DNA from: Pseudomonas sp. GM78
GTDB lineage: Bacteria > Pseudomonadota > Gammaproteobacteria > Pseudomonadales > Pseudomonadaceae
DNA: 46,986 bases
Assembly (NCBI RefSeq): GCF_000282475.1
Contig: NZ_AKJF01000128.1
Location: 1-46,986, forward strand
Direction: 5' to 3'
Shown: one piece after another, positions 111-26,690 of the stretch
Layout of the letters: each line of letters starts with the position of its first letter
How positions within the stretch are numbered: the stretch's first letter is position 1
The notes under the pieces: model-generated
Seen by the model: only the letters and a program-made list of their open reading frames with translations
What the model was told of the DNA's origin: nothing
Databases searched by the model: none
Program-made: the position numbers and the translations under genes

Positions 111-1601
111 TCAGTGAGCAATACACACCGACTTGAGCTCGGTGTAAGCCTCAATCACCGCACGACCAAACTCACGCCCCATACCCGACTGCTTGACCCC
201 ACCGAATGGCATCGCCGGATCAAGCAATACGTGGGCATTGACCCAAACCGTACCCGCTTCGATGCGCGGCACCAGATTCATCGCCTTGCCCAGGTCGTTG
301 GTCCAAAGGCTGGCAGCCAACCCGTAACGGTTGTCGTTGGCCAGCGCGATGACCGCGTCTTCATCGTCGAACGGCATCACGCCCAGCACCGGACCGAACA
401 CCTCTTCGCGCGCAATGGCCATGCTGTGGTCGATGTCGGCGAGGATGGTCGGCTGGACAAAGAAGCCCTCGCCTTCCAGCAACTCGCCGCCAGCCACCAC
501 CCGCGCACCTTCCTGGCGGGCCAGCTCGATGTGCTTGAGCACGCTCTGCTGCTGCTTGCGCGACACCAGCGGGTTGATCGCCGCCGCGCAGTTCATGCCC
601 GCGCCAATCGGCATCGCCGAGACCGCCGCCGCCAGGGCCTCGACGAATTTGTCGTGGATCGAGCGATGCACGTAGAAGCGCGAAGCCGCCGCGCACACCT
701 GGCCATTGTTCAGCAGGCCACCGAGGATCGCACCCTGCACGGCTTTTTCGATGTCGGCATCGGCGAGCACGATCATCGGGTTCTTGCCACCCAGCTCCAG
801 GGAGAAGCGTGTCATGTTTTCCATGCACGCAACGCCGACGCTCTTGCCCACGGCGGTGGAGCCAGTGAACGACACTTTGCTCACCAGCGGGTGCGCGGTC
901 AGCACGCCGCCGACCGAAGCGCCGCCGCCGGTCACCACATTGAACACACCGGCCGGAATGCCCGCTTCGAGAGCCAGCTCGGCCAGGCGCATGGCGGTCA
1001 ATGGGGTTTCCATCGCCGGCTTGATGATCACCGTGCAACCGGTGGCCAGCGCCGGCATTAGTTTCCAGGCGGCGATCAGCAGCGGGAAGTTCCACGGCAC
1101 GATGCCAACCACGACGCCCACCGGCTCACGCTTGGTGAACGCCGTGAACTTGGCGCCCGGCGGCAACGGGATCGACACGTCGAAGGTCTGCCCTTCGATC
1201 TTGGTCGCCCAGCCAGACATGTAGCGCATGAACTCCACCGTGGCGTTCAGGTCCAGGGCGCGAGCCATGTTGATCGACTTGCCCTGGCTCAGGGTTTCCA
1301 GCTGTGCCAGCTCTTCGGCATGCTCTTCCACCAGGCGGGTGAAGTTCAGCAGGATGCGCTCACGGTCCGCTGGACGCAGGCCCGACCACACGCCGGACTT
1401 GAAAGCCTGGTGCGACGATTGCACGGCGCGCTCGACGATTTCCAGAGGCGCGTCAAGGGTTTGACACAGGGTTTGCCCGGTGGCCGGGTTGACCACGGCA
1501 ATGTTCTGACCTTCGGCAAACACCCACTGGCCATCGATAAAGCAGCCGTGTTGGCGATCGAGGAATGCAGCAACCTGCGGCAGGATTTCAACGTTGCTCA
1601 T
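111..1601 (-). CDS. NAD(P)+-dependent aldehyde dehydrogenase, arylacetaldehyde type
   Basis: This is a full-length (496 aa) cytoplasmic member of the ALDH superfamily that oxidises an aldehyde to its acid. Visible signature residues are N171 in PWNFP, K194 in the cofactor region (VIIKP), E269 in LELGGKNP and the nucleophile C303 in NNGQVCAAA. The overall sequence resembles phenylacetaldehyde (FeaB/PeaE-like) and indole-3-acetaldehyde (AldA-like) dehydrogenases, but the substrate cannot be read from sequence. The start has a good ribosome site (AAGGTGA). It follows a cytochrome c gene on the same strand with a 51-bp gap, suggesting a two-gene operon. The aromatic amine dehydrogenase and auxin-degradation genes elsewhere in the window make indole-3-acetaldehyde or phenylacetaldehyde attractive substrates. 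That is inference, because the gene lies about 20 kb from aauB. Confidence 0.9.
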   Translation of the reverse strand: MSNVEILPQVAAFLDRQHGCFIDGQWVFAEGQNIAVVNPATGQTLCQTLDAPLEIVERAVQSSHQAFKSGVWSGLRPADRERILLNFTRLVEEHAEELAQLETLSQGKSINMARALDLNATVEFMRYMSGWATKIEGQTFDVSIPLPPGAKFTAFTKREPVGVVVGIVPWNFPLLIAAWKLMPALATGCTVIIKPAMETPLTAMRLAELALEAGIPAGVFNVVTGGGASVGGVLTAHPLVSKVSFTGSTAVGKSVGVACMENMTRFSLELGGKNPMIVLADADIEKAVQGAILGGLLNNGQVCAAASRFYVHRSIHDKFVEALAAAVSAMPIGAGMNCAAAINPLVSRKQQQSVLKHIELARQEGARVVAGGELLEGEGFFVQPTILADIDHSMAIAREEVFGPVLGVMPFDDEDAVIALANDNRYGLAASLWTNDLGKAMNLVPRIEAGTVWVNAHVLLDPAMPFGGVKQSGMGREFGRAVIEAYTELKSVCIAH

Positions 1602-1652
1602 AAATCACCTTTCATTCAGATGGACGAGCCGGCGGGCCGGCGAAAGCGTCAA

Positions 1653-2042
1653 TTAGTGTTGTTCTTTGAGGAAGCACACCACCGCCTGGCGATCATCTGC
1701 CGAGGCCATGCCCATGTAGGGCATGTAGGTGCCAGGCACATAGGCCTGGGGTTGCGTGATCAGTTGCGCGATGTTCTCGGCTTGCCAGTCGATGTTCTTG
1801 TTGCGCATGGCTTGCGAGTAGTTGAAGCCTTCCAGCGAGCCGGACTTGCGCCCCACCACACCTGCCAGGTTCGGCCCCATCATGCCGGCCGTGCCTTTGC
1901 TCACCGCATGGCAGACCCCGCACTCATTGGCGAACAGTTCGGCGCCACGCTGCTGCTGCGGTGCGCAATCGGCAGCGACGGCGGCCTGCGCCAGAGTGAC
2001 GGACAACACAGCAACGAGGGACAAACGCAGGGTGGTGAACAT
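1653..2042 (-). CDS. periplasmic monohaem cytochrome c (class I)
   Basis: A 129-aa protein with an N-terminal Sec signal peptide (residues 1-24, cleavage near AVAAD), one CXXCH haem site (C41, C44, H45) and a likely axial methionine in PGTYMPY (M107). It belongs to the c2/c550-like small cytochromes that carry electrons from periplasmic dehydrogenases. An in-frame TTG 33 bases upstream is possible, but the ATG gives a standard signal peptide and has AAGG about 10 bases before it. It lies just upstream of the aldehyde dehydrogenase and is probably co-transcribed. That pairing is reminiscent of alcohol or amine oxidation modules, in which a periplasmic enzyme passes electrons to a cytochrome and the aldehyde is oxidised in the cytoplasm. 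Its real partner is unknown. Confidence 0.85.
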   Translation of the reverse strand: MFTTLRLSLVAVLSVTLAQAAVAADCAPQQQRGAELFANECGVCHAVSKGTAGMMGPNLAGVVGRKSGSLEGFNYSQAMRNKNIDWQAENIAQLITQPQAYVPGTYMPYMGMASADDRQAVVCFLKEQH

Positions 2043-2299
2043 GAGAAACGACCTTGAAAATCCGCGCGTTCGCAATCAAGGCGAACGCCAACACTGAAAG
2101 TGCCGAGGCTTTGGTGCTTCGGCAGGTTGAGAGGATTGTCGGTGGTCGGTGACCCGCAGGTTTTGCCCTGCCTGCCAGTTGTGTTGGCGGTTCTGCCAAA
2201 CTGCTGCACGGGCGCGATCAGCGATAGCCAGGCTTGATCCAAAGTTCTGCCTATACTGCAATCCAGCCGCCCTGATCACCTGCGCTGAGGAACTGCTGG

Positions 2300-3016
2300 A
2301 TGAATGTGACCGACTATTTTGATCGAACAAGAATCGTCAATATTGTGTCAAGAAAGGATCGCCGCGTAGAAACGGTACAAGAATTCGCGCGCAACGGTTT
2401 TCCCTTTGATCATGAAAAAGTCAGCTTTTTCCCGGCTGTAACGCCCAGTGAGGACAATGGCTTCCCGAGCCTCGGGGCCAGGGGCTGCTTCATGAGCCAC
2501 CTGGGGATACTGGAAGAAGCGATACACCTGAATGTGAAAAACATACTGATCCTGGAGGATGACATACAGTTTTCCAGGCGCATTTCCCACTATGGAAAAC
2601 AGGCCATCGAGTCCCTGGAAGGCATGGAGTGGGACATCGCCTACTTTGGCCATCCGTTTGAAGGCGACTCAAGCTCGCCCACCTGGAAAGCCGTCGACCA
2701 GCCTATACACCTGTCGCATTTCTATGCGGTAAACGGCAAATGCATTACCCGGTTGCGCGATTTCCTGCTGCAGATCCTGGAGCGCCCGCCAGGGCATCCT
2801 GACGGCGGGCCGATGCACTATGACGCCGCCCTCAATACGCTGATTCATTCGAACAAAGACGTTCAGGCCTACTATTTCACTTGGAACCTGGGCTACCAAC
2901 GACCCTCGCGCACGGACTTGCATGCGCTGTCCCTGTTCGACAGGACGCCTGTCCTGCGCGATGTCATGGGCATGCTCAGGAAGTTGAAGGCCATGAACCT
3001 GAGAAGAATTCGATAG
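2300..3016 (+). CDS. glycosyltransferase family 25 (LPS-type)
   Basis: A 238-aa protein with features of GT25 enzymes that modify lipopolysaccharide. The N-terminal VNIVSRKDRR segment (about residues 13-22) is followed by GARGCFMSHLGIL (about 60-72) and the acidic ILILEDDIQF motif (about 83-92), expected to bind the metal and nucleotide sugar. The ATG at 2300 is preceded by TGAGGAA at a good distance. No membrane segment is seen, so it probably acts at the cytoplasmic side of the inner membrane. It stands alone between the divergent cytochrome gene and an outer-membrane protein gene, and no sugar-nucleotide genes adjoin it. The transferred sugar cannot be inferred. Confidence 0.8.
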   Translation: MNVTDYFDRTRIVNIVSRKDRRVETVQEFARNGFPFDHEKVSFFPAVTPSEDNGFPSLGARGCFMSHLGILEEAIHLNVKNILILEDDIQFSRRISHYGKQAIESLEGMEWDIAYFGHPFEGDSSSPTWKAVDQPIHLSHFYAVNGKCITRLRDFLLQILERPPGHPDGGPMHYDAALNTLIHSNKDVQAYYFTWNLGYQRPSRTDLHALSLFDRTPVLRDVMGMLRKLKAMNLRRIR

Positions 3017-3090: not shown

Positions 3091-3221
3091 TCACCCCGCC
3101 ATGCAATCTGGCAAGCACAACCAACTCTTTGGCACCGAGGCAACAAGGCGCAAAAAATCCCGGCATTAGTATCTGGAGCGACCGCAACCCTGCGCTCAAG
3201 AACAAGAACGGATGCCACACC

Positions 3222-4544
3222 ATGCTCAAGTCCCCCTTGCTTCGCCTCTCTACACTGGCGTTGATGATCAGTGCCGGCCAGGCGAGCGCCTACGAACTCT
3301 ACGCCAGTGACGACAGTCATCTGAACGCCACCCTGGAAGCGGTTTTCGGCGTGTTCCACAGCCAGGAAAACTACGCCCTGTCGGGTCGTCTCGACGAAGG
3401 TTCGTCGTCGTGGCGCGAGGGCTACATCAAGTACGGCCTGAGCTTCGACCAGGGCCTGGCGGGTGTCGGCACCGCCTACGGCGCGGCGAACATGCTCAGC
3501 TCCGGTACTTGGGGCGACGGTGACGCCGCCGGCTTCACCGACGGTTCGGAACGCACCACCAAGTTCGAAGACGCCTACCTCGGCTGGCGCTCGAGCGATC
3601 TGTTTCCGGTGCTGGGTACCGACGGCATCGACCTGTCTTTCGGTCGCCAGAACATCATGGTCGGCGACGGCTTCCTGATCAACGGCGATGCACTGAACCT
3701 GGGCAAAGGCCTGGCCGACGGCGAGTTCAATCGCGGTGGCGCCTACTGGCTGGCGGCGCGCAAGGCCTTCGACGAAACCGCGGTGTTGCGTATCGGCGGC
3801 AAGGAAGGCTGGCGCAGTGACCTGATGTGGTTGAAATCCAACAACCGCGCCCAGGCCAAGACCGAAATGTACGTCGGTACCCTGGAGCACGTGGCCGAGG
3901 CCGGGACCGTCGGCTTGACCTACATCGACACCAAGGATGTCGACGAGGAGTTCGCCTCCCCCGCGCAACTCGAGCGCGATGGCATGAAGACCTACAGCCT
4001 GCGCGCGACCGGCAACGCCGGGGTCAAGGACCTGTTCCTCTCCGGCGAATACGCCAAGCAGGACAAACCCCACACGGCCACCGAAGACGCCTGGTACCTG
4101 GAAGCTGGCTGGACCTTTTCCGAGGCGCCATGGACGCCGTATGCCGGCTACCGCTACAGCCGTTTCTCGGAAGGCTACGACACGCTGTTCTACGGTTTCA
4201 GCCGCGGCTTCGGCACCTGGTTCCAGGGTGAAGTGGCGGGCAACTACGCCGGCCCGTTCAACACCAACTCGCGCATCCAGCAACTCAAGTTCACCGTCTC
4301 GCCACTGGAGAACCTGACCGTCGGCGCGATGTACTTCAACTTCGACACCATCGACCGCGACCTGGGCAACACCGATGGCCACGAAGTCGACCTGTACGCC
4401 GAATGGCACCTCAACGACCACATCACGGTGATGCCGCTGGTCGGTCTGTTCCAGCCGGACAAGAGCGCCGACCAGGGCGGTACGCAGTTGGGCAACAACG
4501 ACAAGAACCTCTACAGCCAGCTGATTTTCGCCAGCTCTTTCTAA
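3222..4544 (+). CDS. outer-membrane beta-barrel protein, alginate-export-like
   Basis: A 440-aa precursor. The signal peptide spans residues 1-23 (MLKSPLL...GQASA), and the mature part is rich in alternating amphipathic strands with aromatic girdles. It ends in Phe (FASSF), the usual C-terminal signal for assembly by the BAM complex. The style and length fit the alginate-export/porin-like barrel families that pass small anions or oligosaccharides, but the exact family and cargo are uncertain. The reading frame stays open upstream, yet the signal peptide fixes the start at 3222. It is followed after 53 bases by a chemoreceptor gene, so uptake and sensing of a shared compound are possible (inference). 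Confidence 0.75.
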   Translation: MLKSPLLRLSTLALMISAGQASAYELYASDDSHLNATLEAVFGVFHSQENYALSGRLDEGSSSWREGYIKYGLSFDQGLAGVGTAYGAANMLSSGTWGDGDAAGFTDGSERTTKFEDAYLGWRSSDLFPVLGTDGIDLSFGRQNIMVGDGFLINGDALNLGKGLADGEFNRGGAYWLAARKAFDETAVLRIGGKEGWRSDLMWLKSNNRAQAKTEMYVGTLEHVAEAGTVGLTYIDTKDVDEEFASPAQLERDGMKTYSLRATGNAGVKDLFLSGEYAKQDKPHTATEDAWYLEAGWTFSEAPWTPYAGYRYSRFSEGYDTLFYGFSRGFGTWFQGEVAGNYAGPFNTNSRIQQLKFTVSPLENLTVGAMYFNFDTIDRDLGNTDGHEVDLYAEWHLNDHITVMPLVGLFQPDKSADQGGTQLGNNDKNLYSQLIFASSF

Positions 4545-4597: not shown

Positions 4598-6724
4598 ATG
4601 CACAGAAGATTCCTCACGATCCAGAGCAAGATCACCCTGCTCGCCGGCCTCTGTCTGGTGTTGGTGGTGGGCTTGCTGATGGGCCTGTCGCTATACCAGA
4701 CGCACAAGAGCAGCCAGCAAGTGGCCCGGGCCAGCAGCGACATGCTCGCCGACGCGGCCAGGGAACACATGCAGGCCCTGGGTAAAGTGCAGGCCATGCA
4801 AGTGCAACGCACGTTCATGCAGACCCACGAATTCGGCCAGGGATTGTCGCGGTATTTGCTGTACCTCAGGCAACTCCAGCACCAGGGCCATCTGACCCGC
4901 CAACAACTGCGCCAGGAGCTGAGCACCCAGCTTCAACAGGCCCTGATCGACAAGCCCGACCTGCTCGGGCTTTACGTCGTTTTTGAACCCGACGCCCTGG
5001 ACGGTGCCGATGCCGGCTTCGCCAACAAGCCGGAGCTGGGCAGCAACGAGACCGGACGCTTCTCCCTGTATTGGGTGCAAAGCAAACCCGGTGAACTGCA
5101 AGCGGTGATCGGCGATGAAGGCCTGCTGGCCAACACCGAGCCAGGGCCCAGCGGCACACCCTACAACGCGTTCTACACCTGCGCCCGCGACACCCGCCAG
5201 GCCTGCGTGCTGGAGCCCTACTTCGACGAGGCATCGGGCAGTCGCAAACTGGTGACCAGCGTCGCCTTCCCGCTGCTGGAGAACGGCAAGGTCATCGCCG
5301 TGGTCGGTCTCGACATCAACCTCGCCGCCTTGCAAAAGAACAGCGAGTCCAGTGCGCTGCAGCTGTTCGACGGCCATGGCCAGATCAGCATCGTCAGCCC
5401 CCGTGGCGTGATTTCCGCCAACAGCCAGGACATCAGCCGCCTCGGGCAACCGATGGACAATGCCCAGGTGATGGACGCCTTGCGCCTGGGTCAGCCGAAG
5501 GTGTTTGTCGACCCACAGCAAATCAAGGTCCTCGAACCGCTGCCACCGATTACCGGCGCCGCGCCCTGGGGTGTGCTGGTCGGCGTGCCGCAGGAAGTAT
5601 TGCTGGCACCGGTCGCCACCCTGCAAAAACAACTCGATGCCCAGGGCGTGCAAAGCACTGCGCTGGAGCTGCTGCTCGGTGGCGGCTCGGCCCTGCTTGG
5701 CCTGCTGCTGATCGGGTACACCGCACGGCGCATCACCCGGCCGCTGCAAATGCTGACTCGGGTCATGGAGGGTATCTCCCTTGGCGAGGGAGATTTGACC
5801 CGGCGCCTGCAGGTGCAGTCACGGGATGAAATCGGCCAGTTGGCTACGGCGTTCAACCGTTTTGTCGAGCGCATCCATCACTCGATCCGCGAAGTCTCGT
5901 CGGCGGCCCATGGCGTCAACGAAGGCGCCCGCCGAGTGCTGGACGCCTCCAATTCGTCGCTGGGCAATTTCGACGATCAAGCCACCCGCACCACCAGCGT
6001 GGCCGCCGCGATCAACCAGTTGGGCGCTGCCGCCCAGGAAATCGCCAACAACGCCTCCGATGCCTCGCATCAGGCCTCCAGTGCCCGGCAACAGGCCGAA
6101 GACGGTCGCCAGGTGGTGCAACGCACCATAGATGTGATGCACGAGCTGTCGGCAAAAATAAGCGCGTCGTGCGTAAACATCGAAGTGCTCAACGACAAGA
6201 CCGTGAACATCGGGCAGATCCTCGAAGTGATCAAGGGCATCTCCCAGCAGACCAACCTGCTGGCGCTCAATGCCGCCATCGAAGCGGCACGTGCCGGTGA
6301 AGCCGGCCGCGGCTTTGCCGTGGTGGCCGACGAGGTGCGCAGCCTGGCCGGCCGCACCCAGTCCTCGGCGCAGGAGATCCAGCAGATGATCGAGGAGCTG
6401 CAAGTGGGCGCCCGCGACTCGGTCACCACCATGACCGAAAGCCAGCAGCACAGCGAAGAGAGCGTCACCATCGCCAACCTCGCCGGCAGCCGCTTGAGCA
6501 GCGTGACCCAACGCATCGGCGAGATCGACAACGTCAACCAGTCTGTCGCCGCCGCCACCGAAGAACAGACGGCCGTGGTCGAGGCCTTGAACGTCGATAT
6601 CACGCAGATCAATGCGCTGAACCAGCAGGGCGTGGAGAATTTGCAGGCGACGTTGCGGGCTTGTACTGAGCTGGAGCAGCAGGCGGCGCGGTTGAATCAG
6701 TTGGTGGGGAGTTTTCGTATCTGA
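4598..6724 (+). CDS. methyl-accepting chemotaxis protein with periplasmic Cache-type sensor
   Basis: A 708-aa transmembrane chemoreceptor. TM1 is at about residues 12-34, a large periplasmic domain at about 35-352, TM2 at about 355-375, a HAMP domain at about 376-430 and a signalling coiled coil to the C-terminus. The coil contains the conserved hairpin-tip sequence around QQTNLLALNAAIEAARAGE and the following RGFAVVADEVRSLA. The periplasmic part looks like a double-Cache (PDC) sensor (LLGLYVVFEPDALDG; VIAVVGLDINLAAL). The ATG has GGAAAAAGG upstream. Longer in-frame starts inside the preceding gene are rejected because they precede TM1 with unrelated sequence. The ligand is unknown. Its neighbours are a porin-like protein upstream and an amine permease operon downstream. 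Confidence 0.92.
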   Translation: MHRRFLTIQSKITLLAGLCLVLVVGLLMGLSLYQTHKSSQQVARASSDMLADAAREHMQALGKVQAMQVQRTFMQTHEFGQGLSRYLLYLRQLQHQGHLTRQQLRQELSTQLQQALIDKPDLLGLYVVFEPDALDGADAGFANKPELGSNETGRFSLYWVQSKPGELQAVIGDEGLLANTEPGPSGTPYNAFYTCARDTRQACVLEPYFDEASGSRKLVTSVAFPLLENGKVIAVVGLDINLAALQKNSESSALQLFDGHGQISIVSPRGVISANSQDISRLGQPMDNAQVMDALRLGQPKVFVDPQQIKVLEPLPPITGAAPWGVLVGVPQEVLLAPVATLQKQLDAQGVQSTALELLLGGGSALLGLLLIGYTARRITRPLQMLTRVMEGISLGEGDLTRRLQVQSRDEIGQLATAFNRFVERIHHSIREVSSAAHGVNEGARRVLDASNSSLGNFDDQATRTTSVAAAINQLGAAAQEIANNASDASHQASSARQQAEDGRQVVQRTIDVMHELSAKISASCVNIEVLNDKTVNIGQILEVIKGISQQTNLLALNAAIEAARAGEAGRGFAVVADEVRSLAGRTQSSAQEIQQMIEELQVGARDSVTTMTESQQHSEESVTIANLAGSRLSSVTQRIGEIDNVNQSVAAATEEQTAVVEALNVDITQINALNQQGVENLQATLRACTELEQQAARLNQLVGSFRI

Positions 6725-6911: not shown

Positions 6912-7069
6912 GTTTGTGTCCAATCTGGCACCCACAACCAACCACATGGCATGCACGCAAACATGCCGCGCCGCACCCCGCGCGTAGTATCGAAGCGCAA
7001 AGCAACGCTGAACCCCCTCCATTTCTCACTAAAAACAATAAATCGACCTTCGGGTCGCGGGAGATTTCT

Positions 7070-12260: not shown

Positions 12261-12272
12261 CTAGTCGACTAG
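12261..12272. promoter_or_regulatory. perfect 12-bp palindrome CTAGTCGACTAG
   Basis: The palindrome is in the divergent region between the iacG-like gene and the response regulator gene. Its right half begins the 19-bp element shared with the iacA upstream region, so it may be a full dimer site for the response regulator. Confidence 0.45.
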
Positions 12273-16099: not shown

Positions 16100-16600
16100 T
16101 CACAGAAGGAAGCCGAGCGCGCTCAGGCTGTCGGTGGAGTTGATCAGCCGCACCACTTTGCGCTCCAGGGTCGGCACGCCATCGGTGAAACGGATGCGGT
16201 GGTTCAGGTCGGCCACGAACGGCGTGTGCACGCCGCGCTTGTAGGCGTACAGCAACTGCGCCGAGTTGACTTCGACGATGTCGCCGGCCGCTTCGACCAG
16301 GCGGAAACGCGAGATCGTGCGGATGGTTTTCGCCGCGTCCACCGCCGACGGCGAGTAACCGGCAGTCAGGCGTTCGATGCGCAGGTCACGCATGCGTGCG
16401 TCGTCGTAGGCGTAGTTCAGCGTCGCCTCGAAGTCTTCGGTGTCCGGGTCGATCGGCACGATGTACTTGCCGCTTTCGCTCCACAAGCTCGCCCACTCGG
16501 CGTAGTTCTTGTGGTCGAGCAGTTCGGCCTCGCGCCAGATGAACTCGATGGCCTGCGCCAACGGGCCGGAAAAACCGTTCAGGGTGTCTTGATTGCTCAT
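16100..16600 (-). CDS. iacD: Rieske aromatic-ring dioxygenase small subunit, IacD
   Basis: A 166-aa beta subunit of an aromatic-ring-hydroxylating dioxygenase (NTF2-like cone fold). AIEFIWREAELLDHKNYAEWASLWSESGKYIVPIDPD is typical of this family. The start overlaps the stop of the alpha subunit by 4 bases (ATGA), which fixes the start and implies coupled translation in equal amounts. The subunit has a structural role in the alpha3beta3 oxygenase and holds no metal. Confidence 0.88.
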   Translation of the reverse strand: MSNQDTLNGFSGPLAQAIEFIWREAELLDHKNYAEWASLWSESGKYIVPIDPDTEDFEATLNYAYDDARMRDLRIERLTAGYSPSAVDAAKTIRTISRFRLVEAAGDIVEVNSAQLLYAYKRGVHTPFVADLNHRIRFTDGVPTLERKVVRLINSTDSLSALGFLL

Positions 16601-19028: not shown

Positions 19029-19495
19029 GCGCACAACTCCTTATTGAACAGCCGTTGCGTGCGGAAATGCGCGATCAGCCACACTCCGTCGACACAACGG
19101 AAATCGATGTTCAGCCGAGTGCCGAACAGTTCGCTGCGCTGATCGGCGTAGGTGGAGATCTGCTGCATGATCCACTGCCCCTGCGCCGAATTACCGTCGA
19201 CCACGATCGACTCGCTGGTGAGGTAATGCAGGTTCAGCTGGAAGTGGTCCGACGGCGGCAGGTAACCGCCGACAAACGCCGCCACGGCCTCGCGTCCACG
19301 ATGCTGGCCGAAGGTCTGCGCGGTCTCGCGGCCAACGCCTTCCCAGATCGCATCGAGGCAGAACAGCTCGGCCAGCTCGCTGACCTGAGTCGGCGCCCGC
19401 GGCACGTCGCAGAGATCCATGTAGCGCGCCATCAAGCGACGCACCGCGCTTTCCCCTTCGAGCGTTGTCAGACGCTGCAGCAAGGCCTCGTTCAT
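19025..19495 (-). CDS. iacI: SnoaL/NTF2-like protein, IacI
   Basis: A 156-aa protein of the SnoaL-like polyketide-cyclase/NTF2 fold (ARYMDLCDVP...LAELFCLDAIWEGVG...GREAVAAFVGGYLPPSDHFQLNLHYLTSESIVVDG). Such proteins form small cone-shaped barrels that can be enzymes or helpers. It starts 3 bases after the iacB stop and overlaps iacH by 4 bases, so it is firmly in the operon. IacI is known from other iac clusters, with no firm biochemical role that I can state. Confidence 0.83.
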   Translation of the reverse strand: MNEALLQRLTTLEGESAVRRLMARYMDLCDVPRAPTQVSELAELFCLDAIWEGVGRETAQTFGQHRGREAVAAFVGGYLPPSDHFQLNLHYLTSESIVVDGNSAQGQWIMQQISTYADQRSELFGTRLNIDFRCVDGVWLIAHFRTQRLFNKELCA

Positions 19496-19498
19496 GGC

Positions 19499-19870
19499 TT
19501 ACACCTTGGCCGCGTCAGGGATGGTCAGCGGGCGACCGATGCGCGCTTCGACCTTGGCGTAGCGCCACAGGCTGTATTCGTTCACCGGCGTGGTGCGGAA
19601 CAGGTTGCAGGCGTCGATCACCGTCTGGTGGCAGTCGACGTCGGCCATGATGTACACGGTCCAGGGCGAGGTAGTGGACGGGCCGACCATCAGGCGGTCG
19701 TCATCCATGGCGCCGAGCACGGTGATGCCGGGCATCGCGCCCAAGTCGCCCATCATCTTGCTGAAGCCTTTCCACACGCTCAGGCCTTCGCCGGTGGGCA
19801 GGTCGAAAAAGTTCTGGGTGATGCCGATGCAGAAGACGACGCGCAATGGTTCTTGAGTGGTTTGGGTCAT
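19499..19870 (-). CDS. iacB: IacB, small conserved protein of IAA degradation
   Basis: A 123-aa cytoplasmic protein without signal peptide or known catalytic motif. Its place between iacA and iacI, 26 bases after the iacA stop, is the main reason for the name. The sequence (VVFCIGITQNFFDLPTGEGL...YIMADVDCHQTVIDACNLFRTTPVNEYSLWRYAKVEARIGRPL) looks like a small ferredoxin-like alpha/beta domain, as in EthD or antibiotic-biosynthesis-monooxygenase relatives; this fold guess is weak. It may assist the IacA oxygenase. AAGGATC precedes the start. Confidence 0.78.
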   Translation of the reverse strand: MTQTTQEPLRVVFCIGITQNFFDLPTGEGLSVWKGFSKMMGDLGAMPGITVLGAMDDDRLMVGPSTTSPWTVYIMADVDCHQTVIDACNLFRTTPVNEYSLWRYAKVEARIGRPLTIPDAAKV

Positions 19871-19896: not shown

Positions 19897-21060
19897 TCAG
19901 ATGTAGCCCGGGAACGGCGGTACGCCGAGGAACACCGAGCCGGCGCCGTCATACAGCCCTTCGCTGAGGAAGGCGTGCTGGGTCACCACCATCGAGTCGC
20001 GCAGGTAGCGTTGCAGTGGATGGCGCAGGTAAATGGCGGTGGTACCGGCCAGGCTGTAGGCGCTCTGCACCACCTCGGCGCCGGCCTGGGACACGTGAAT
20101 GGCAGACAAACGCAACAGGCTGGTCTGCTCCGGGGTGACCGGATTACCCGCAAGGATCGAGTTCCAGACCTGTTCGGTGGCGTTGTAGAAGAAACCGCGG
20201 GCGGCAGTCAGCTTGGCTTCGGCCTTGGCGATTTCGATGCGCACGTAGGCGCGGTCGGACAGTTTCGGCGCGCCGGTGATGCCACTGCCGCCAGCCATGC
20301 GGCTGATTTCATCGAGGGCAGCGCGGGCCAGGCCGAGGTTGACCACCGCCAGCACTTGCGCGGCATAGGCAATCGAGGGGTAACGGAACAGCGGTTCGTC
20401 GATGGTCGAGGCACCGCCGCGGATGAAGGTCCAGCGCTCGTCGACGCGCTTGTCGGACACGCGCAGGTCGTGGCTGCCGGTGCCTTTGAGTCCGACCACG
20501 TCCCAGTTCTCGACGATCTCTACCTGCTCCGGGCGGAACACCGCGGTGCGCGGCTTGCCGCCCGCAGCGCCGATGCCCACACCCAGCAAGTCAGCGCCCT
20601 TGCAGCCGCTGGCGAATTTCCAGGTGCCATTGACCTGATAACCGCCCTCTACCGCTTCGGCCGGTTGCAATGGAAACAGGCCGCCAGCGAATACCAGGTC
20701 AGGGCTTTTTGCATAGAGCTCAGCCAGGGTTTCGCGTGGCAAAGCCGCCAGGTAGACGCCGGCACTGCCGAAGCTGGCAACCCAGCCCGCCGAGCCGTCG
20801 GCTTCGGAGATGCGCTCGATCATTTGCAGGAACAGGGCCGGCGCCAGGGCGTCACCGCCGAAGCATTTTGGCGTGGCGGCACGGTAGATGCCCACTTGCT
20901 TGAAACGCTCGATCATGTCCCGCGGCACATGGGAGCCGGCGTCGAACTCGTCGCGGCGCTGGCGCACTTCATCCAGTACCTGCGCAAAGGCCTGGCTGTC
21001 GACGACATTCTCGTCAACGCCGATCGATGCGTCTTGTTGCGCAACCGCTGAACGCAGCAT
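19897..21060 (-). CDS. iacA: flavin-dependent IAA monooxygenase, IacA
   Basis: A 387-aa acyl-CoA-dehydrogenase-fold oxygenase of the HsaA/DszC-like group D flavoprotein monooxygenases. Characteristic stretches are SEADGSAGWVASFGSAGVYLAAL, WKFASGCKGAD, WDVVGLKGTGSHDL and the C-terminal helical part ending near RHPLQRYLRDSMVVTQHAFLS, where the conserved RDS site usually sits. IacA carries out the first oxidation of indole-3-acetate (to a 2-hydroxylated product), using flavin reduced by a partner reductase. The ATG at 21060 has GGAG 7 bases upstream, whereas the ATG at 21066 is too close to that site. It is the first gene of the iac operon, 326 bases from the divergent kinase gene. Confidence 0.88.
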   Translation of the reverse strand: MLRSAVAQQDASIGVDENVVDSQAFAQVLDEVRQRRDEFDAGSHVPRDMIERFKQVGIYRAATPKCFGGDALAPALFLQMIERISEADGSAGWVASFGSAGVYLAALPRETLAELYAKSPDLVFAGGLFPLQPAEAVEGGYQVNGTWKFASGCKGADLLGVGIGAAGGKPRTAVFRPEQVEIVENWDVVGLKGTGSHDLRVSDKRVDERWTFIRGGASTIDEPLFRYPSIAYAAQVLAVVNLGLARAALDEISRMAGGSGITGAPKLSDRAYVRIEIAKAEAKLTAARGFFYNATEQVWNSILAGNPVTPEQTSLLRLSAIHVSQAGAEVVQSAYSLAGTTAIYLRHPLQRYLRDSMVVTQHAFLSEGLYDGAGSVFLGVPPFPGYI

Positions 21061-21112
21061 GGGCATTCTCCGTTTTGATTATTGTTAGTGGGGGGACACC
21101 GCACCGCTCTAC

Positions 21113-21279: not shown

Positions 21280-21298
21280 GCTAAAGAAATCCCCTAGT
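21280..21298 (-). promoter_or_regulatory. candidate response-regulator element, copy B
   Basis: Read on the minus strand it is ACTAGGGGATTTCTTTAGC, oriented toward iacA. It matches copy A (12268-12286) at 16 of 19 positions. It lies 220 bases upstream of the iacA start and 87 bases before the kinase start, so it could serve either gene. Confidence 0.5.
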
Positions 21299-21385: not shown

Positions 21386-22870
21386 ATGTACTTGCCAAAA
21401 CCAAACGATTTCCATGCGCTGATCGAAGCCATGCCGCTGTGCATCATTCTTCACGATGCGCACACCAAGGAAATTCTCTGGGCCAACGCTGCCGCCCTGG
21501 CGGCGCTGGGTTTTACCCTGGAAGAACTGACGCCGCTCAAAGCCCCGGACATGACCCGCGACGCACCGAAGTACCGGCGTTCGGTGGGCCTGCGCTGGCT
21601 GGAAGGTGCCGCGCGCACCGGTCAGCGCGCCATCGAATGGTGCTATCGCTCCAAGCAAGGGGTGGAGATTCTTTCCGAGGCCGTGGCGACCCTGGTGCAC
21701 CTGGACGGTCGCGATGTGCTGATGGTGCAGTTCCGCGACATCTCCAAGGAGGACAAGGTCAAGCGCGACCTCAAGCGCTTCGAAAGCCGGCTCAAGGCGT
21801 TCATGCAGGATCTGGCCGAGGGCGTGGCGGTGCTCGGCCCCGAGGGCGATATCGGTTTTATCAGCGACTCCGGCGCGCACTTGCTCGGCAGTGAAGTCCA
21901 TCAATTGATGGGCGAGAACTTCCTGGCCTGGTGCGATGAGGATTCGCGCCAGCGTCTGCTGCAACAGTTCGCCCACGAGACACCGGAACACACGCCGTTC
22001 AACGTGCATTACCAAGTACAGCGGCGCGACGGCGAATGGCGCTGGCATGACGCAACGTGCCGCTATATAGAGATTGAGGATGACCTGGTCGGGCATCTGC
22101 TGCTGTTTCGCGACGTCACCGAGCAGGTGCAGGCCGAAGAAGCGCGCCGGCTCAGCGAGCAGAAACTCGAATACCTGGCGCGCTACAACGCCATGGGTGA
22201 AATGGCCGTGGCCATCGCCCATGAACTGAGCCAGCCGCTGGCTGCCACCCGCAATTTCATCGAGGGTGCGGTGATTCGCCTGGGCAACGCGGCCGACGCC
22301 GATCAAGGCGTCACCTGGGGCTTGCAGAGCGCCGTGCGGCAAATCGAGCACGCCTCGGTGATCATCAAGAGCGTGCGCGATTACGTGGTGAAACTGGAGC
22401 AAAGCGAAGAGCTGATCGACCTCAACGAGCTGCTGCGCGAAACCCGCTATTTCATCAGCCTGCGGGCCGATCCAAGCCTGGTGCGCGTGGACGTCGTGAC
22501 CTCACCCGAGCCGCTGCGGGTCAGTTGCGAGAAGGTGTTGATTGGCCAGGTCATCCTCAACCTGGCGTTCAATGCGATTGAAGAGATGGCCGATCTGCCG
22601 CTCGAACGCCGGGTGTTGCGCATTCATGCCAGCGCCGCCGACGGCGTGGCGCTGGTGCGCATCGAAGACAGCGGCCGCGGCATCCAGGCCCAGGCGCAAG
22701 AGAAGCTGTTCGATGGCTTCTTCTCGTCCAAGGTCAGCGGCAACGGCATCGGCCTGGCGCTGTGCAAGAACATCATCGGCCGTCATCGGGGCGATATCTG
22801 GGCGCAAAACCTGGAGCCATGCGGCGCCGTATTCACCTTCTCCCTTCCTCTCCTCGCCACCTCCGCCTGA
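21386..22870 (+). CDS. soluble PAS-PAS sensor histidine kinase
   Basis: A 494-aa kinase without transmembrane segments. Two PAS-like domains (about residues 8-120 and 140-248) precede a dimerisation/phosphoacceptor domain with H279 in VAIAHELSQPLAATRN. The ATPase domain has the N box (NLAFNAIEE, N392/N396), G1 (EDSGRG, about 427-432), F box (FDGFFSSK) and G2 (GNGIGLALCKN, about 452-462). A cytosolic ligand such as IAA or an IAA intermediate could bind the PAS domains, as aromatics do in TodS/StyS-type kinases (inference). No receiver domain is attached. The FixJ-type regulator at 12.4-13.0 kb is the likely phosphorylation partner. It is divergent from iacA, and its ribosome site is weak. Confidence 0.9.
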   Translation: MYLPKPNDFHALIEAMPLCIILHDAHTKEILWANAAALAALGFTLEELTPLKAPDMTRDAPKYRRSVGLRWLEGAARTGQRAIEWCYRSKQGVEILSEAVATLVHLDGRDVLMVQFRDISKEDKVKRDLKRFESRLKAFMQDLAEGVAVLGPEGDIGFISDSGAHLLGSEVHQLMGENFLAWCDEDSRQRLLQQFAHETPEHTPFNVHYQVQRRDGEWRWHDATCRYIEIEDDLVGHLLLFRDVTEQVQAEEARRLSEQKLEYLARYNAMGEMAVAIAHELSQPLAATRNFIEGAVIRLGNAADADQGVTWGLQSAVRQIEHASVIIKSVRDYVVKLEQSEELIDLNELLRETRYFISLRADPSLVRVDVVTSPEPLRVSCEKVLIGQVILNLAFNAIEEMADLPLERRVLRIHASAADGVALVRIEDSGRGIQAQAQEKLFDGFFSSKVSGNGIGLALCKNIIGRHRGDIWAQNLEPCGAVFTFSLPLLATSA

Positions 22871-22995: not shown

Positions 22996-23147
22996 GATCA
23001 ACGCACCGCTGACTCCTCTGGCACAGATACACAAACACTTGGCAGGCAGGGCAATTCCCGCGATTGCCGGGCGAGGCACTATTCGATGGTCAGAATCTGC
23101 CCACTCACCCGCGATCCGCGTTACCAATAATTCAGGAAGTTCCCCTT

Positions 23148-24299
23148 ATGCGAACAAACAGGATCTCCGTACAGTCAGCGCTAGGCCTGAGCCTGCTTGT
23201 ACTCGGCTTGAACAGTGCCCGCGCGGACCTGCCCGCCGACACCGGCATCGGCCAGACCACCTTGGCCTTCCCCGCTGAACCGCACCGGGCATTCGTCGTC
23301 GATGTCGAGTTCGAAAGCTTCGTCGCCGGGCGTGTCACCGTGGTCGACCCCGACCAGAAGCGCGTGCTCGGCATGGTCCCGACCGGCTTTGCCGCGCCTT
23401 CGGCCCTGAGCCATGACGGCAAGCTGATCTACAGCGCCGACATCTGGTATTCGCGCGGCACCCGTGGCACCCGCACCGACGTGCTGACCGCGTGGGACAG
23501 CTCGACCCTGTCGCCGGCCTGGGAAGTATTGATCCCGAACAAGCGCGCCGAGTCGCTGACCCAACGCTACGGCCTGAAGACCAGCGGCGATGACCGTTTC
23601 GTCTACGTCTACAACTTCACCCCGTCGACTTCGGTGACTGTGGTCGATACCCAGGCCAAAGCAGTGGCCACGGAAATCGCGATTCCCGGTTGCGTGCTCA
23701 ACTACCCGATCGGCAAGCGTAAGTTCGCCTCGCTGTGCGGCGACGGCAGCCTGCAGGTCGTGACGATCAACGACGAGGGCAAGGAAACCGCGCGCAGCCG
23801 CACGCCGTTCTTCGACCCGAACGCGGAAAAACTGGTGGAGCGTGCGGTCAACGTCGGCGACACCTACTACTTCACCACCACCACCGGCACCCTGCGCGGT
23901 GTGGATTTCAGCGGCGACGCGCCGAAGATCCTGCCGAGCTGGTCGCTGGTCACCGATGAAGAGAAGAAAGCCGGTTGGGCACCGGGCGGCTGGCAGCTGA
24001 TGGCAGTCGCGCCGAAGCTGAATCGCTTGTACGTGCTGATGCACGACGCCCATGAACCGATGAAGTGGGAAGACCCAAGCCCCCTGATCTGGGCCTTCGA
24101 CCTGAAGACGGGCAAGAAAATCGGCACCCTGGAAGCACCGGTACCGGTGTGGAGCATGCAGGCGACGGGTGATGACAAACCGTTGCTGTTGGGCACCGAC
24201 GTTGAAGGCGGCTTGCAGATCTTCGACCTCAAGACCAACAAGCACACCGGCAGCATGGCCAAGGTCGCGAAAACCGCGACTCAGGTCATGAGCTACTAA
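23148..24299 (+). CDS. aauB: aromatic amine dehydrogenase large (beta-propeller) subunit, AauB
   Basis: A 383-aa periplasmic protein with a Sec signal peptide (about residues 1-26, cleaved near SARA) and a seven-bladed propeller-like repeat pattern. Key stretches are RAFVVDVEFESFVAGRVTVVDPDQKRVLGMVPTGF near the N-terminus and WAFDLKTGKKIGTLEAP...LLLGTDVEGGLQIFDLKTNKHTGSM at the end, as in methylamine and aromatic amine dehydrogenase heavy chains. It pairs with the quinone-bearing small subunit encoded 1.2 kb downstream. The enzyme oxidises primary arylalkylamines such as phenylethylamine, tyramine and tryptamine to aldehydes plus ammonia. GGAAG lies 8 bases before the start. The order aauB-E-D-A matches the aromatic amine utilisation operon described in Alcaligenes faecalis. 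Confidence 0.9.
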   Translation: MRTNRISVQSALGLSLLVLGLNSARADLPADTGIGQTTLAFPAEPHRAFVVDVEFESFVAGRVTVVDPDQKRVLGMVPTGFAAPSALSHDGKLIYSADIWYSRGTRGTRTDVLTAWDSSTLSPAWEVLIPNKRAESLTQRYGLKTSGDDRFVYVYNFTPSTSVTVVDTQAKAVATEIAIPGCVLNYPIGKRKFASLCGDGSLQVVTINDEGKETARSRTPFFDPNAEKLVERAVNVGDTYYFTTTTGTLRGVDFSGDAPKILPSWSLVTDEEKKAGWAPGGWQLMAVAPKLNRLYVLMHDAHEPMKWEDPSPLIWAFDLKTGKKIGTLEAPVPVWSMQATGDDKPLLLGTDVEGGLQIFDLKTNKHTGSMAKVAKTATQVMSY

Positions 24300-24312: not shown

Positions 24313-24852
24313 ATGCAATCAGATCCGATCTTCATCCTTGCCAGCGCCATCGCCATTGCGGTGCTGCTGGCCAGTGCCGCGACCCACAAGGTGCGGGCGC
24401 CAGCGCGCTTTCGCAAACAGCTTGCCGATTATCAACTGCTGCCTGACGCGCTGGTGCACCCGAGCGCGCGGTTGATTCCGCTACTGGAACTGGCCATTGC
24501 CTTCGCGTTGCTGGTGCCGGTCAGCCGTCCCTGGGCGGCGTTGAGCGCGGCGGGCCTGTTGGCACTGTACGCCGCTGCCATCGGCATAAACCTGTGGCGC
24601 GGTCGTCGCGACATCGACTGCGGCTGTGCAGGTCCCGACCAGGCGCAACCGTTGCGCCCGGTCCTGCTGCTGCGCAACAGCGTGCTGGTGGCGCTGGCGC
24701 TGCTGGCCAGCGTGGCACCGATTGCCCGCGACATGACTGTGTTCGATGGCTTCGTGACCCTGGCGTCTGCCGCCGTCGCGCTGCTCATCTACGCCGCGGC
24801 CGATGGTCTGGCGGCGAACTCCCCTCTTCTGCTCAAATTGATTGGTAGGTAA
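24313..24852 (+). CDS. aauE: MauE-like membrane protein for small-subunit maturation, AauE
   Basis: A 179-aa inner-membrane protein with about four to five helices and a CGC motif (C103, C105, DIDCGCAG) between helices, as in MauE/DoxX-like redox membrane proteins. MauE and MauD work together in export and disulfide folding of the cysteine-rich small subunit. It starts 13 bases after the aauB stop and ends 5 bases before aauD. Confidence 0.88.
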   Translation: MQSDPIFILASAIAIAVLLASAATHKVRAPARFRKQLADYQLLPDALVHPSARLIPLLELAIAFALLVPVSRPWAALSAAGLLALYAAAIGINLWRGRRDIDCGCAGPDQAQPLRPVLLLRNSVLVALALLASVAPIARDMTVFDGFVTLASAAVALLIYAAADGLAANSPLLLKLIGR

Positions 24853-24857: not shown

Positions 24858-25484
24858 ATGGAAGGCTTGATAGTTTCCAACGTTCTGCTCTGGGTATTGC
24901 TGGTGGCCGTGGCGTTCGTCGTCATGGGCCTGGTCCGTCAGATTGGCGTGCTGCACGGCCGTCTGGCCCCGGCCGGCGCGCTGATGATGGACAAAGGCGT
25001 GGCCGTCAACGAAGCCGCACCGCAAGTGACCGCTGCCGACCGTAATGGTCGCCCGGTGAACTTCGGTTATGCCGGTGAGAAATCGCAACTGCTGTTCTTC
25101 CTCTCGCCGACCTGCCCGATCTGCAAATCGCTGTTGCCGGCGATCAAGTCCATCGCCAAGGAACAGGCCAGCACGCTGGACGTGGTGTTCGTCAGCGACG
25201 GCGACATGGACGCCCAGCAAGCGCTGATCCGCGAACACAAACTGGAAGACGCCACTTATGTGGTCGGTCCGGAAGTGGGCATGACCTACCAGATCGGCAA
25301 GCTGCCGTACGCCGCACTGATCGACAAGTCCGGCACCCTGCGCGCCAAAGGCCTGGTCAACTCCCGCGAGCACCTGGACAGCCTGTTCGAAGTCGAGCAC
25401 CTCAAGCACGCCACGCTGCAGCAGTACCTCAATGCTCAGCCCCACGACCACGCTCACGATCATAGCCACGGCCATAGCCACTGA
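24858..25484 (+). CDS. aauD: MauD-like thioredoxin-fold protein with His-rich tail, AauD
   Basis: A 208-aa membrane-anchored thioredoxin-like protein. One N-terminal helix (about residues 5-25) is followed by a periplasmic redox domain with C86 and C89 in SPTCPICKSLLP. It is needed for folding of the small subunit of amine dehydrogenases (known for MauD). The last 15 residues hold seven histidines alternating with Asp, Ala, Ser and Gly, suggesting metal binding. That tail is not a feature I expect in MauD proteins generally. The gene is tightly packed between aauE and aauA. Confidence 0.9.
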   Translation: MEGLIVSNVLLWVLLVAVAFVVMGLVRQIGVLHGRLAPAGALMMDKGVAVNEAAPQVTAADRNGRPVNFGYAGEKSQLLFFLSPTCPICKSLLPAIKSIAKEQASTLDVVFVSDGDMDAQQALIREHKLEDATYVVGPEVGMTYQIGKLPYAALIDKSGTLRAKGLVNSREHLDSLFEVEHLKHATLQQYLNAQPHDHAHDHSHGHSH

Positions 25485-25502: not shown

Positions 25503-26024
25503 ATGAAACTGCTGGATCTGTTGTTCGAGCGCTCCTCGCGCCGTGTTGCCGACACGACTTCGCGCCGCAAACTGCTGGCCCGCATGGGCTCGCTGATCGT
25601 TGCCGGTGCCGCCCTGCCCGTGCTGCTGCCGCTGGACCGTACCAGCAAGGCGCTGGCCGCCACCGACCCGAAAGCCGGCGACCCTGGCGATCCGAACAGC
25701 TGCGACTACTGGCGCTACTGCTCCATCGACGGCTTTCTGTGCAGTTGCTGCGGCGGTTCGGTGACTTCCTGCCCACCGGGCACCGAGGCCTCGCAAGTGA
25801 CCTGGATCGGCACCTGCCGCAACCCGGCCGACGGCAAGGACTACATCATTTCGTACAACGACTGCTGCGGTAAGCAAAGCTGCGCCCAGTGCGCCTGTAC
25901 CCGTAACGACAGTGAAGAACCGGCCTACCGTCCGTTCAACAACAACGATGTGAACTGGTGCCTGGCCGCCAAATCGCACATCTATCACTGCACCGTTTCG
26001 ATCATCCGTGGCGTGGCGGTCTGA
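25503..26024 (+). CDS. aauA: aromatic amine dehydrogenase small subunit (TTQ-bearing), AauA
   Basis: A 173-aa precursor with a twin-arginine leader (TSRRKLLARMG at 19-29, hydrophobic stretch to about 44, cleavage near KALAA). The mature part has 14 cysteines (C67, C73, C80, C82, C83, C90, C105, C121, C122, C127, C130, C132, C153, C163), consistent with the disulfide-dense fold of the family. The two tryptophans expected to be cross-linked into tryptophan tryptophylquinone are W101 (VTWIGTC) and W152 (VNWCLAA). The conserved core CDYWRYCSIDGFLCSCCGG is intact. A GGGAGA ribosome site precedes it. It is followed by a strong terminator. Confidence 0.92.
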   Translation: MKLLDLLFERSSRRVADTTSRRKLLARMGSLIVAGAALPVLLPLDRTSKALAATDPKAGDPGDPNSCDYWRYCSIDGFLCSCCGGSVTSCPPGTEASQVTWIGTCRNPADGKDYIISYNDCCGKQSCAQCACTRNDSEEPAYRPFNNNDVNWCLAAKSHIYHCTVSIIRGVAV

Positions 26025-26035
26025 CACGCACCACC

Positions 26036-26066
26036 GCCGGTTGCCCTGGCAATCGGCGTTCTTTTT
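26036..26066 (+). terminator. rho-independent terminator after aauA
   Basis: GCCGGTTGCC and GGCAATCGGC form a 10-bp stem with one G-T wobble and a 2-base loop, followed by GTTCTTTTT. It should end most aauBEDA transcripts before the cytochrome gene. Confidence 0.82.
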
Positions 26067-26070
26067 AAAA

Positions 26071-26137
26071 AATCGCAGCCTGCGGCAGCTCCTACATTGA
26101 CCGCGTGCTCCTGTAGGAGCTGCCGCAGGCTGCGATC
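26071..26137. repeat. REP inverted pair, TCGCAGCCTGCGGCAGCTCC type
   Basis: AATCGCAGCCTGCGGCAGCT at 26071 is mirrored by AGCTGCCGCAGGCTGCGAT ending at 26136, with TTTTC after it. It lies between the aauA terminator and the cytochrome gene. Its stem is a different REP class from the others in the window. Confidence 0.88.
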
Positions 26138-26168
26138 TTTTCAAGGCACAACAAATTAGGGGTTCGAA

Positions 26169-26690
26169 ATGCGTCGTTTGCTAATCCTCGGCCTGGCCTG
26201 CGCCCTGACCACCCCACTCGCCCATGCCCGGGCCATCCCGGACCCGACGCAGCATCACGCGCCGGGCAACGAGGAACTGCAAAAGCCCATCGCCGAGGCC
26301 GGCTACAGCGTGGGTGTGAACTATCAGTTGCAATGCGCCGGTTGCCACCTGGGCAACGGCATGGGCTCGGCGGCCAATGACACGCCGCGAATGACCGGGT
26401 TTGTCGGTAACTTCCTGAAAGTCCCCGGCGGTCGCGAATTCCTGGTGCGCGTGCCGGGCATGTCGCAATCGGCGTTGAATAACGCGCAACTGGCTGACCT
26501 GCTCAACTGGCTGATGCGCGAGGACGGTATGGCCGGAAAAAGCCGACCCGCCGATTACCAGCCCTACAGCGCAGACGAAGTGGCGGCACTGCGCGCCAAA
26601 ACCATGCTCAACCTGCCTGGCACCCGCGCCGAACTGATCAGCAAGATGCGCGCCCAAGGCATCGCCATCGAAGACGGGATGAGTAACTGA
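26169..26690 (+). CDS. monohaem cytochrome c of the aau cluster
   Basis: A 173-aa periplasmic protein with a signal peptide (about 1-22), one haem site C56-A-G-C59-H60 and a likely axial Met in RVPGMSQSAL (M98). A monohaem cytochrome gene also follows aauA in the published A. faecalis aau region, where it was named orf-2. It may accept electrons from AADH directly or through an azurin-like protein. The terminator and REP pair in between suggest it has its own promoter or lower expression than aauBEDA. Confidence 0.83.
   Translation: MRRLLILGLACALTTPLAHARAIPDPTQHHAPGNEELQKPIAEAGYSVGVNYQLQCAGCHLGNGMGSAANDTPRMTGFVGNFLKVPGGREFLVRVPGMSQSALNNAQLADLLNWLMREDGMAGKSRPADYQPYSADEVAALRAKTMLNLPGTRAELISKMRAQGIAIEDGMSN

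Follow-up and report, generated by a model that had tools for sequence, protein, structure and literature searches.

The 46,986-nucleotide stretch of Pseudomonas sp. GM78 analysed here (the window) represents one whole contig (C128) of a 7.29-Mb genome in 235 contigs, and its left part (positions 111 to 26690) carries an island in which genes for a tryptophan tryptophylquinone (TTQ) amine dehydrogenase (aau) adjoin genes for degradation of the auxin indoleacetate (iac). We read this island as a hub for arylethylamine catabolism, one exit of which would degrade auxin; a common amine-oxidising front end would feed two exits, iac and the phenylacetate (paa) pathway, and we assign this reading a probability of about two in three. 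It is built on gene content, recurrent linkage, co-occurrence and shared promoter elements, all of which were observed. The first-pass annotation of the window had proposed a narrower route leading from tryptamine via indoleacetate to catechol.

The genus sample comprised 398 genomes, in which the TTQ subunit family PF02975 was matched in 58 genomes at 60 places; these were divided by identity and neighbourhood into group 1 (47, window-like) and group 2 (13), while IacA, counted at an identity of at least 50%, was present in 83 genomes. iacA was found in 44 of the 47 group 1 genomes compared to 39 of the 351 others (odds ratio 117), and aau and iacA lay within 25 kb of each other in 31 of the 47, so that the neighbouring of aau and iac, which the first-pass annotation had proposed to check beyond this strain, is indeed recurrent. 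In the group 2 control, by contrast, none of the 13 places was within 25 kb of iacA or PaaA, and the 11 genomes with group 2 only had iacA in one case and PaaA in five. The gene order of the window is shared by P. umsongensis, P. moorei, P. vancouverensis and others (the proteins of the iac-aau block being 95-100% identical to those of a contig named Pseudomonas umsongensis DSM 16611). Additionally, P. segetis displays the order iac-kinase-porin-aau-aldehyde dehydrogenase, P. marincola (G042) is similar with 12 kb between, P. schmalbachii carries iac on the opposite side of aau, and a second iac type (40-62% identity) adjoins aau in P. putida W15Oct28, P. entomophila and Pseudomonas sp. BGr12.

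The simplest account of such linkage would be that aau and iac are chance neighbours inherited together by common descent of a single island, as is suggested by the fact that most linked cases fall in one AauB clade and show the window order. However, in a tree of AauB, AauD and AauA (140 loci, of which 105 rows passed an identity and integrity filter, 86 of them unique) the state of linkage to iac changes at least ten times, as counted by a quick method in which gains and losses are not distinguished; eight rows near contig ends were left without a linkage state, and distances served to assign some states manually. Furthermore, two distinct iac types occur, on either side of aau, linkage is found in more than one clade, and one relative (G211) lacks iacFEDCHIBA at this place while possessing another iacA elsewhere. 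Common descent as the whole explanation is thus regarded as highly improbable.

PaaA exceeded its cut-off in 103 of the 398 genomes, among them 43 of the 47 group 1 genomes and 60 of the 351 others (odds ratio 52). It was situated within 25 kb of aau in 10 of the 47, and both paa and iac were linked in four (G042, G059, G261 and G339); the genome of the window has PaaA, with paa on another contig. The two exits are themselves associated (49 genomes with both, odds ratio 7), and the association of aau with paa is kept among iac-positive genomes (40/44 versus 9/39). A strictly linear route from tryptamine via indoleacetaldehyde and indoleacetate to catechol, with aau dedicated to tryptamine, would be favoured by the more frequent linkage of aau to iac than to paa (31 versus 10 of 47), by the higher odds ratio, and by the presence of iac in all four aau genomes without PaaA. 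It is nevertheless judged quite unlikely, as paa is also associated with and linked to aau, genomes G128 and G230 have aau and paa in the absence of iacA, and the promoter elements of the amine genes differ from those of iac (see below). Therefore, while the linkage and gene association with iac that underlay the tryptamine-to-catechol proposal are strong, the association and linkage of paa render it too narrow, and the aau front end probably serves phenylethylamine besides tryptamine.

The converse possibility is that aau serves phenylethylamine or tyramine only, which the first-pass annotation had raised as a weak point, or methylamine, and that iac is a neighbour since genes for plant compounds cluster in islands. 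The nearly equally strong paa association and the FeaR-type and phenylacetaldehyde dehydrogenase-like relatives encoded in the island are in keeping with this, and the genome note of P. putida 1290 reads its island in this manner (PMC6624763). Yet the association of aau with iac persists in paa-positive (40/43 versus 9/60) and paa-negative genomes (4/4 versus 30/291), two iac types are joined to aau in several arrangements, and the group 2 control lacks such clustering; this alternative is accordingly deemed unlikely.

The features of the island and their principal matches are as follows, percentages being identities to the homologues of P. putida 1290 (G245):
111..1601, minus strand: aldH, arylacetaldehyde-type aldehyde dehydrogenase (PF00171; best NCBIfam model StyD phenylacetaldehyde dehydrogenase, 661 bits, under the cut-off of 850; best PDB match 4o5h, phenylacetaldehyde dehydrogenase, 549 bits)
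1653..2042, minus strand: cytC2, small c-type cytochrome with one CXXCH, from the translation (ATG at 2042)
2173..2198, minus strand: operator-like repeat TGGCA-N16-TGGCA, 131 bp before cytC2-aldH
3109..3134, plus strand: operator-like repeat TGGCA-N16-TGGCA before the porin gene (-113)
3222..4544, plus strand: OprD-like outer-membrane porin (named by reading only; no NCBIfam match)
4598..6724, plus strand: methyl-accepting chemotaxis protein (PF00015, HAMP, PDC sensor)
6926..6951, plus strand: operator-like repeat TGGCA-N16-TGGCA before the permease gene (-144 from the chosen start)
7070..8383, plus strand: eatP, amino-acid/ethanolamine-type permease (tentative GTG start; TIGR00908, 334 bits, cut-off 382)
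8376..9653, plus strand: amt, class III pyridoxal phosphate (PLP) enzyme, phospholyase-like (PDB 5g4i, 6tor)
9663..10676, plus strand: aph, APH-fold small-molecule kinase (PF01636; PDB 6ef6, 164 bits)
11628..12140, minus strand: iacG-like flavin reductase (HpaC model, 226 bits, cut-off 206; 51%)
12269..12284, plus strand: box CTAGGTGGTTTCTTTA in the iacG/rr intergenic region
12399..13028, plus strand: rr, FixJ-like response regulator (PF00072 and PF00196; FixJ model, 205 bits, cut-off 255)
13151..14071, minus strand: feaR, AraC-family FeaR-type regulator (curated FeaR model NF007243, 359.6 bits, over the cut-off of 199)
14224..15174, minus strand: iacF, reductase (41%)
15349..16089, minus strand: iacE, short-chain dehydrogenase/reductase (53%)
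about 16100..16600, minus strand: iacD, ring-hydroxylating beta subunit (PF00866; 44%)
16597..17880, minus strand: iacC, ring-hydroxylating alpha subunit (63%)
about 17910..19028, minus strand: iacH, amidase-family (52%)
19025..19495, minus strand: iacI, SnoaL-like (46%)
19499..19870, minus strand: iacB (57%; no family match in profile searches)
19897..21066, minus strand: iacA, flavin monooxygenase of acyl-CoA-dehydrogenase fold (56%)
21282..21297, minus strand: box CTAGGGGATTTCTTTA in the iacA/hk intergenic region
21386..22870, plus strand: hk, PAS histidine kinase, FixL-like (FixL model, 154 bits, cut-off 850)
23019..23044, plus strand: operator-like repeat TGGCA-N16-TGGCA before aauB (-129)
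23148..24299, plus strand: aauB, amine dehydrogenase large subunit (PF06433)
24313..24852, plus strand: aauE (PF07291, MauE)
24858..25484, plus strand: aauD (TIGR02661, MauD, 212 bits, cut-off 189)
25503..26024, plus strand: aauA, TTQ subunit (PF02975)
26169..26690, plus strand: cytC, monohaem c-type cytochrome with one CXXCH (PF00034 under cut-off, E 0.0019)

Open reading frames and family matches bear out the gene inventory drawn up earlier (nine iac genes, aauBEDA with a cytochrome c, and an arylacetaldehyde-type dehydrogenase), to which cytC2, feaR, rr, hk, the porin, the chemoreceptor and the permease-phospholyase-kinase set are now added. From left to right, the order is the aldH side, a glycosyltransferase gene, porin, chemoreceptor, permease/PLP enzyme/kinase, iacG, rr, feaR, iacFEDCHIBA, hk, aauBEDA and cytC. 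The span of 111 to 26690 holds; an exopolysaccharide cluster (27010-46859; sugar transferase, glycosyltransferases, flippase-like and Wzy-like proteins, epimerase) is located to the right of the amine genes.

The substrates, the pairing of regulator and site, and the flux are inferred as follows. Tryptamine, 2-phenylethylamine and perhaps tyramine would cross the porin into the periplasm, where AauAB may oxidise aromatic amines to arylacetaldehydes and pass the electrons to c-type cytochromes, and the cytoplasmic dehydrogenase would convert the arylacetaldehydes to the acids. The same arylacetaldehydes may also be reached from beta-hydroxylated amines by way of the permease, kinase and phospholyase. 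A FeaR-type regulator acting at TGGCA-N16-TGGCA would unite cytC2-aldH, porin, eatP-amt-aph and aauB as one regulon, while tryptamine-derived indoleacetate would be degraded to catechol via iacA-I under the separate control of a FixL/FixJ-like two-component system, and phenylacetate would leave via paa, which lies beside aau in some other genomes.

The direct repeat TGGCA-N16-TGGCA precedes cytC2-aldH, the porin gene, the permease gene and aauB, and these four sites constitute the perfect copies of the window. The plain form with up to one mismatch gave 12 hits in the window compared to 6.1 expected, four of them perfect, and a refined pattern, the fixed A of which was taken from the four window sites themselves, gave four matches compared to 0.03 expected, and 12 genome-wide compared to four for the reversed control. 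Upstream regions of 300 bases were then counted, excluding genes with no start and regions cut short by the end of the locus, and identical upstreams were removed as the genus and named loci overlap. Exact copies were present in 67 of 88 unique upstreams of aauB, 31 of 39 of the porin gene and eight of nine of the permease gene (84/106, 37/45 and 8/9, respectively, prior to the removal of identical upstreams), while none was detected upstream of iacA (0/39), iacG (0/34), iacF (0/32), hk (0/37), rr (0/26) or the chemoreceptor gene (0/21 unique upstreams), and a single iacF upstream (1/32) matched if one mismatch was allowed. Eight more exact copies of the refined pattern occur in the genome of the window (on C36, C94, C108, C198 (two), C203, C206 and C208). 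Six of these lie inside long open reading frames with a high GC content at third codon positions, the exceptions being those on C206 and C208; the porin and permease sites of the window likewise fall in over-long open reading frames, so that such a location is not decisive.

Based on the nearness of gene and sites, it is proposed that the FeaR-type regulator binds the TGGCA repeats. Among the 60 genus loci, 31 contained a FeaR homologue (at least 48% identity), as did 18 of the 80 named loci; these sets overlap and their flanks are short. In G038 and G316, feaR adjoins aau with no iac between them. The motif TGNCA-N8-AAA, which we take to be that of E. coli-type FeaR, occurs above shuffles in upstreams of aldH (18/49), aauB (32/106) and the porin gene (28/45); as a motif for the window it was discarded, since it is not in the window upstreams shown, which carry TGGCA-N16-TGGCA.

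The two iac promoters possess a common box of their own, CTAGGKGRTTTCTTTA, which was read from upstream alignments, in which it is conserved, and then counted, giving two copies in the window compared to 0.02 expected. This box would suit a site for the neighbouring FixL/FixJ-like pair, and the covered part of one study describes two-component LuxR-IacS pairs in iac operons of Pseudomonas (PMC11630574). Motif scans identified no element common to iac and aau promoters. As their promoter elements differ, the amine genes seem not to share a regulon with iac, and the two sets appear to be under two different switches.

The distance of 20 kb between aldH and aauB, noted earlier as a weak point, loses weight through the shared repeats and through direct neighbours elsewhere. 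A homologous aldehyde dehydrogenase (46-95% identical) lies within approximately 2 kb of aau in 14 of the 47 group 1 loci, upstream of aauB in eight (G128, G230, G245, G265, G278, G289, G311 and G340) and downstream of cytC in six (G027, G042, G073, G089, G204 and G285). In the clade of the window, this gene (92-100% identical) is on the far side of iac in 11 of the 14 iac-linked genomes for which that side was fetched; it was not seen within the fetched far side in G301, G277 and G042, the copy of the latter being on the aau side. cytC2 and aldH probably form one operon, and a cytC2 homologue adjoins aldH in G042, G027, G285 and G089. In G049, G038 and G211, no iac core separates aau from the nearby aldehyde dehydrogenase-porin part, and because such arrangements exist both with and without iac in the middle, iac has been inserted into, or lost from within, an amine module. 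The locus of G211 (L079) retains iacG, rr, feaR, hk and aau, iacFEDCHIBA being absent between feaR and hk, and the other iacA of this genome (55%) is on a different contig.

Regarding the nature of the dehydrogenase, AauA is identical to the beta subunit of Alcaligenes faecalis aromatic amine dehydrogenase (AADH) at 65 of 118 residues, and W101, W152, D120 and T164, which we take to be the TTQ and catalytic positions, align with the same residues in that protein. The best PDB scores of AauB, which is distant from all characterised large subunits encountered, were 175 bits for AADH and 142 for methylamine dehydrogenase (MADH), while AauA scored 167 and 133 bits, respectively, but 169 bits with an MADH light chain including its leader (3c75). 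The curated MADH subunit models were under cut-off (TIGR02658, 179 versus 454 bits; TIGR02659, 179 versus 197 bits). A MauG-family protein has a role in TTQ formation, and no match to the MauG family PF03150 was obtained at E <= 0.001 across the genome of the window, a search that was positive in just two of 14 control genomes. Because of the AauA residues shared with AADH, the AauB scores, the MADH subunit models under cut-off and the lack of a MauG-family match, placement of aau on the AADH side is tentatively favoured from these comparisons, and the name methylamine dehydrogenase is disfavoured, though the MauD model is over its cut-off. Group 2 (13 hits, e.g. L063 and L069) is another type of TTQ amine dehydrogenase found in the genus, with no iac linkage; its interpretation as ordinary MADH was dropped, since it also falls on the AADH side and is therefore usable only as a same-family control. 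A cytC homologue comes after aauA in all 60 genus loci and in 79 of the 80 named loci, two sets that overlap; the one locus without it (L204) ends soon after aauA. This cytochrome may act as an electron acceptor or contribute to TTQ formation.

All nine iac genes have homologues within a single block of P. putida 1290 at 41-63% identity, and in that strain iac is tied to growth on indoleacetate (PMC6624763). By gene content (iacA-I all present) the set is assigned to the Iac pathway, with conversion of indoleacetate to catechol as its predicted function, and CatA (catechol 1,2-dioxygenase) is over cut-off in the genome of the window. In the covered part of one study, the IacA of Caballeronia glathei showed no oxidation of tryptamine itself (PMC7225977), so that the route would require a front end that oxidises the amine.

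The solved structures nearest to amt are phospholyases (5g4i, 459 bits; 6tor, an ethanolamine-phosphate phospho-lyase, 344 bits; next match, 188 bits), and its predicted product is by this measure nearest to amino-alcohol-phosphate phospholyases, not transaminases; the TIGR00908 match starts at residue 85 of the long eatP open reading frame. Of the 398 genomes, 18 possess a copy of amt of at least 84% identity, and each of these 18 carries group 1 aau (with amt on another contig in four, and 55-68 kb from aau in two); 29 of the 47 group 1 genomes are without such a copy. Compact versions of the island occur in G204 and Pseudomonas sp. 30_B, the former combining porin, kinase, phospholyase, permease, FeaR, aldehyde dehydrogenase and aau in a single block with repeats between. 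The permease-phospholyase-kinase set, or phospholyase-kinase alone, also adjoins TTQ dehydrogenase genes in L160, L212, L214 and L274, including distant metagenome-assembled genomes, and porin homologues stand beside aau in Pseudomonas, Marinobacter, Alloalcanivorax and Salinisphaera loci. Hydroxylated arylethylamines as substrates of the kinase and phospholyase are a guess; a literature search on phosphorylation of octopamine in Pseudomonas returned nothing relevant. As a tentative extension, the FeaR regulon could possibly be a single two-entry, two-exit machine, with the TTQ dehydrogenase and a kinase-phospholyase route for octopamine- or phenylethanolamine-type amines as entries. A single dehydrogenase would convert the arylacetaldehyde pool of both entries to two plant auxins, indoleacetate and phenylacetate, for destruction by iac and paa; each auxin would then be an obligatory intermediate that is made and destroyed within one cell, with possible leakage at roots.

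A number of observations weigh against the reading of the island as an arylethylamine hub. The repeat had been spotted by eye in the window upstreams before it was counted, 21 of the 88 aauB upstreams are without an exact copy (including those of P. putida W15Oct28, P. entomophila and P. delhiensis), and the aldH upstreams are poor (4/41 exact, 14/41 with one mismatch), in part because cytC2 stands between. As regards linkage, support is weak for 29 of the 83 inner branches of the tree, the majority of linked cases fall in one clade, and related genomes are not independent, so that Fisher values overstate certainty. Sixteen of the 47 have no iacA within 25 kb, some of them because contigs end, and three of the 47 lack iacA (one genome being 78% complete) while four lack PaaA over cut-off; neither exit is therefore obligatory. 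In 12 other genomes of a class sample with PF02975 (window-type and other, unsorted) no IacA above 31% identity was present, and no iac was found in the flanks, of up to 10 kb, of named loci of other genera; loci of Marinobacter, Salinisphaera and Alloalcanivorax carry aau with aldehyde dehydrogenase and porin homologues. Finally, MauD- and MauE-family models fit AauD and AauE, the former over cut-off, and AauB is remote from that of A. faecalis, such that the 'aromatic' specificity rests on the nearest relative, with group 2 about equally remote.

The arylethylamine hub resembles several known systems in part. The A. faecalis aau cluster, whose structures were encountered as PDB matches, shares with the window the TTQ tryptophan pair, aspartate and threonine, and AauD and AauE have counterparts in the window; the window differs in its distant AauB and in that aau is tied to a promoter repeat, an aldehyde dehydrogenase and acid-degrading genes. 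In the E. coli tynA-feaB-feaR system, TynA is a copper amine oxidase; this system presumably has, like the window, a FeaR-type regulator and an arylacetaldehyde-type dehydrogenase, whereas in the window a TTQ dehydrogenase takes the place of TynA and iac or paa exits are present alongside. The iac island of P. putida 1290 is described as carrying genes for plant compounds besides indoleacetate, including methylamine, phenylacetaldehyde and opines (PMC6624763). Like the window, it combines aau-type TTQ genes, an aldehyde dehydrogenase (46%), a porin and iac in close proximity (aau being 11.8 kb from iacA), while the window is distinguished by another iac type, a two-component pair, and the position of iac between the aldehyde dehydrogenase, porin and chemoreceptor genes and aau. 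In the iac-like operons of plant-associated Pseudomonas with LuxR-IacS, a two-component pair replaces MarR, as in the window, according to the covered part of PMC11630574; unlike the coupling in the window, the terms 'amine dehydrogenase' and 'tryptamine' have no occurrences in its main text.

In the open-licence literature, a scope outside which subscription papers mostly fall, no paper joining TTQ amine oxidation to iac was found, and the covered parts of PMC7225977, PMC11630574, PMC8383072, PMC11676955, PMC9613470, PMC9543091, PMC12462448, PMC3390384 and PMC6779718 do not contain this coupling; the covered part of rhizoSMASH names phenylethylamine, paa and iac as separate items. The first-pass annotation had regarded aau beside iac as undescribed, which is upheld insofar as no paper coupling them was found, although the neighbourhood in P. 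putida 1290 is partly in print, where it is read as serving separate compounds (PMC6624763). What is new is the recurrent combination of known modules with a shared promoter element.

Auxin degraders have mostly been regarded as consumers of auxin already around them. If the reading as an arylethylamine hub is correct, many iac-bearing Pseudomonas would not only degrade indoleacetate but first form it from tryptamine, the two being halves of one meal, and the iac genes would benefit from, or guard against, auxin produced inside the cell. It would additionally suggest that the 'methylamine' genes of P. putida 1290, a model auxin degrader, be re-annotated, and the island would supply a defined candidate regulon.

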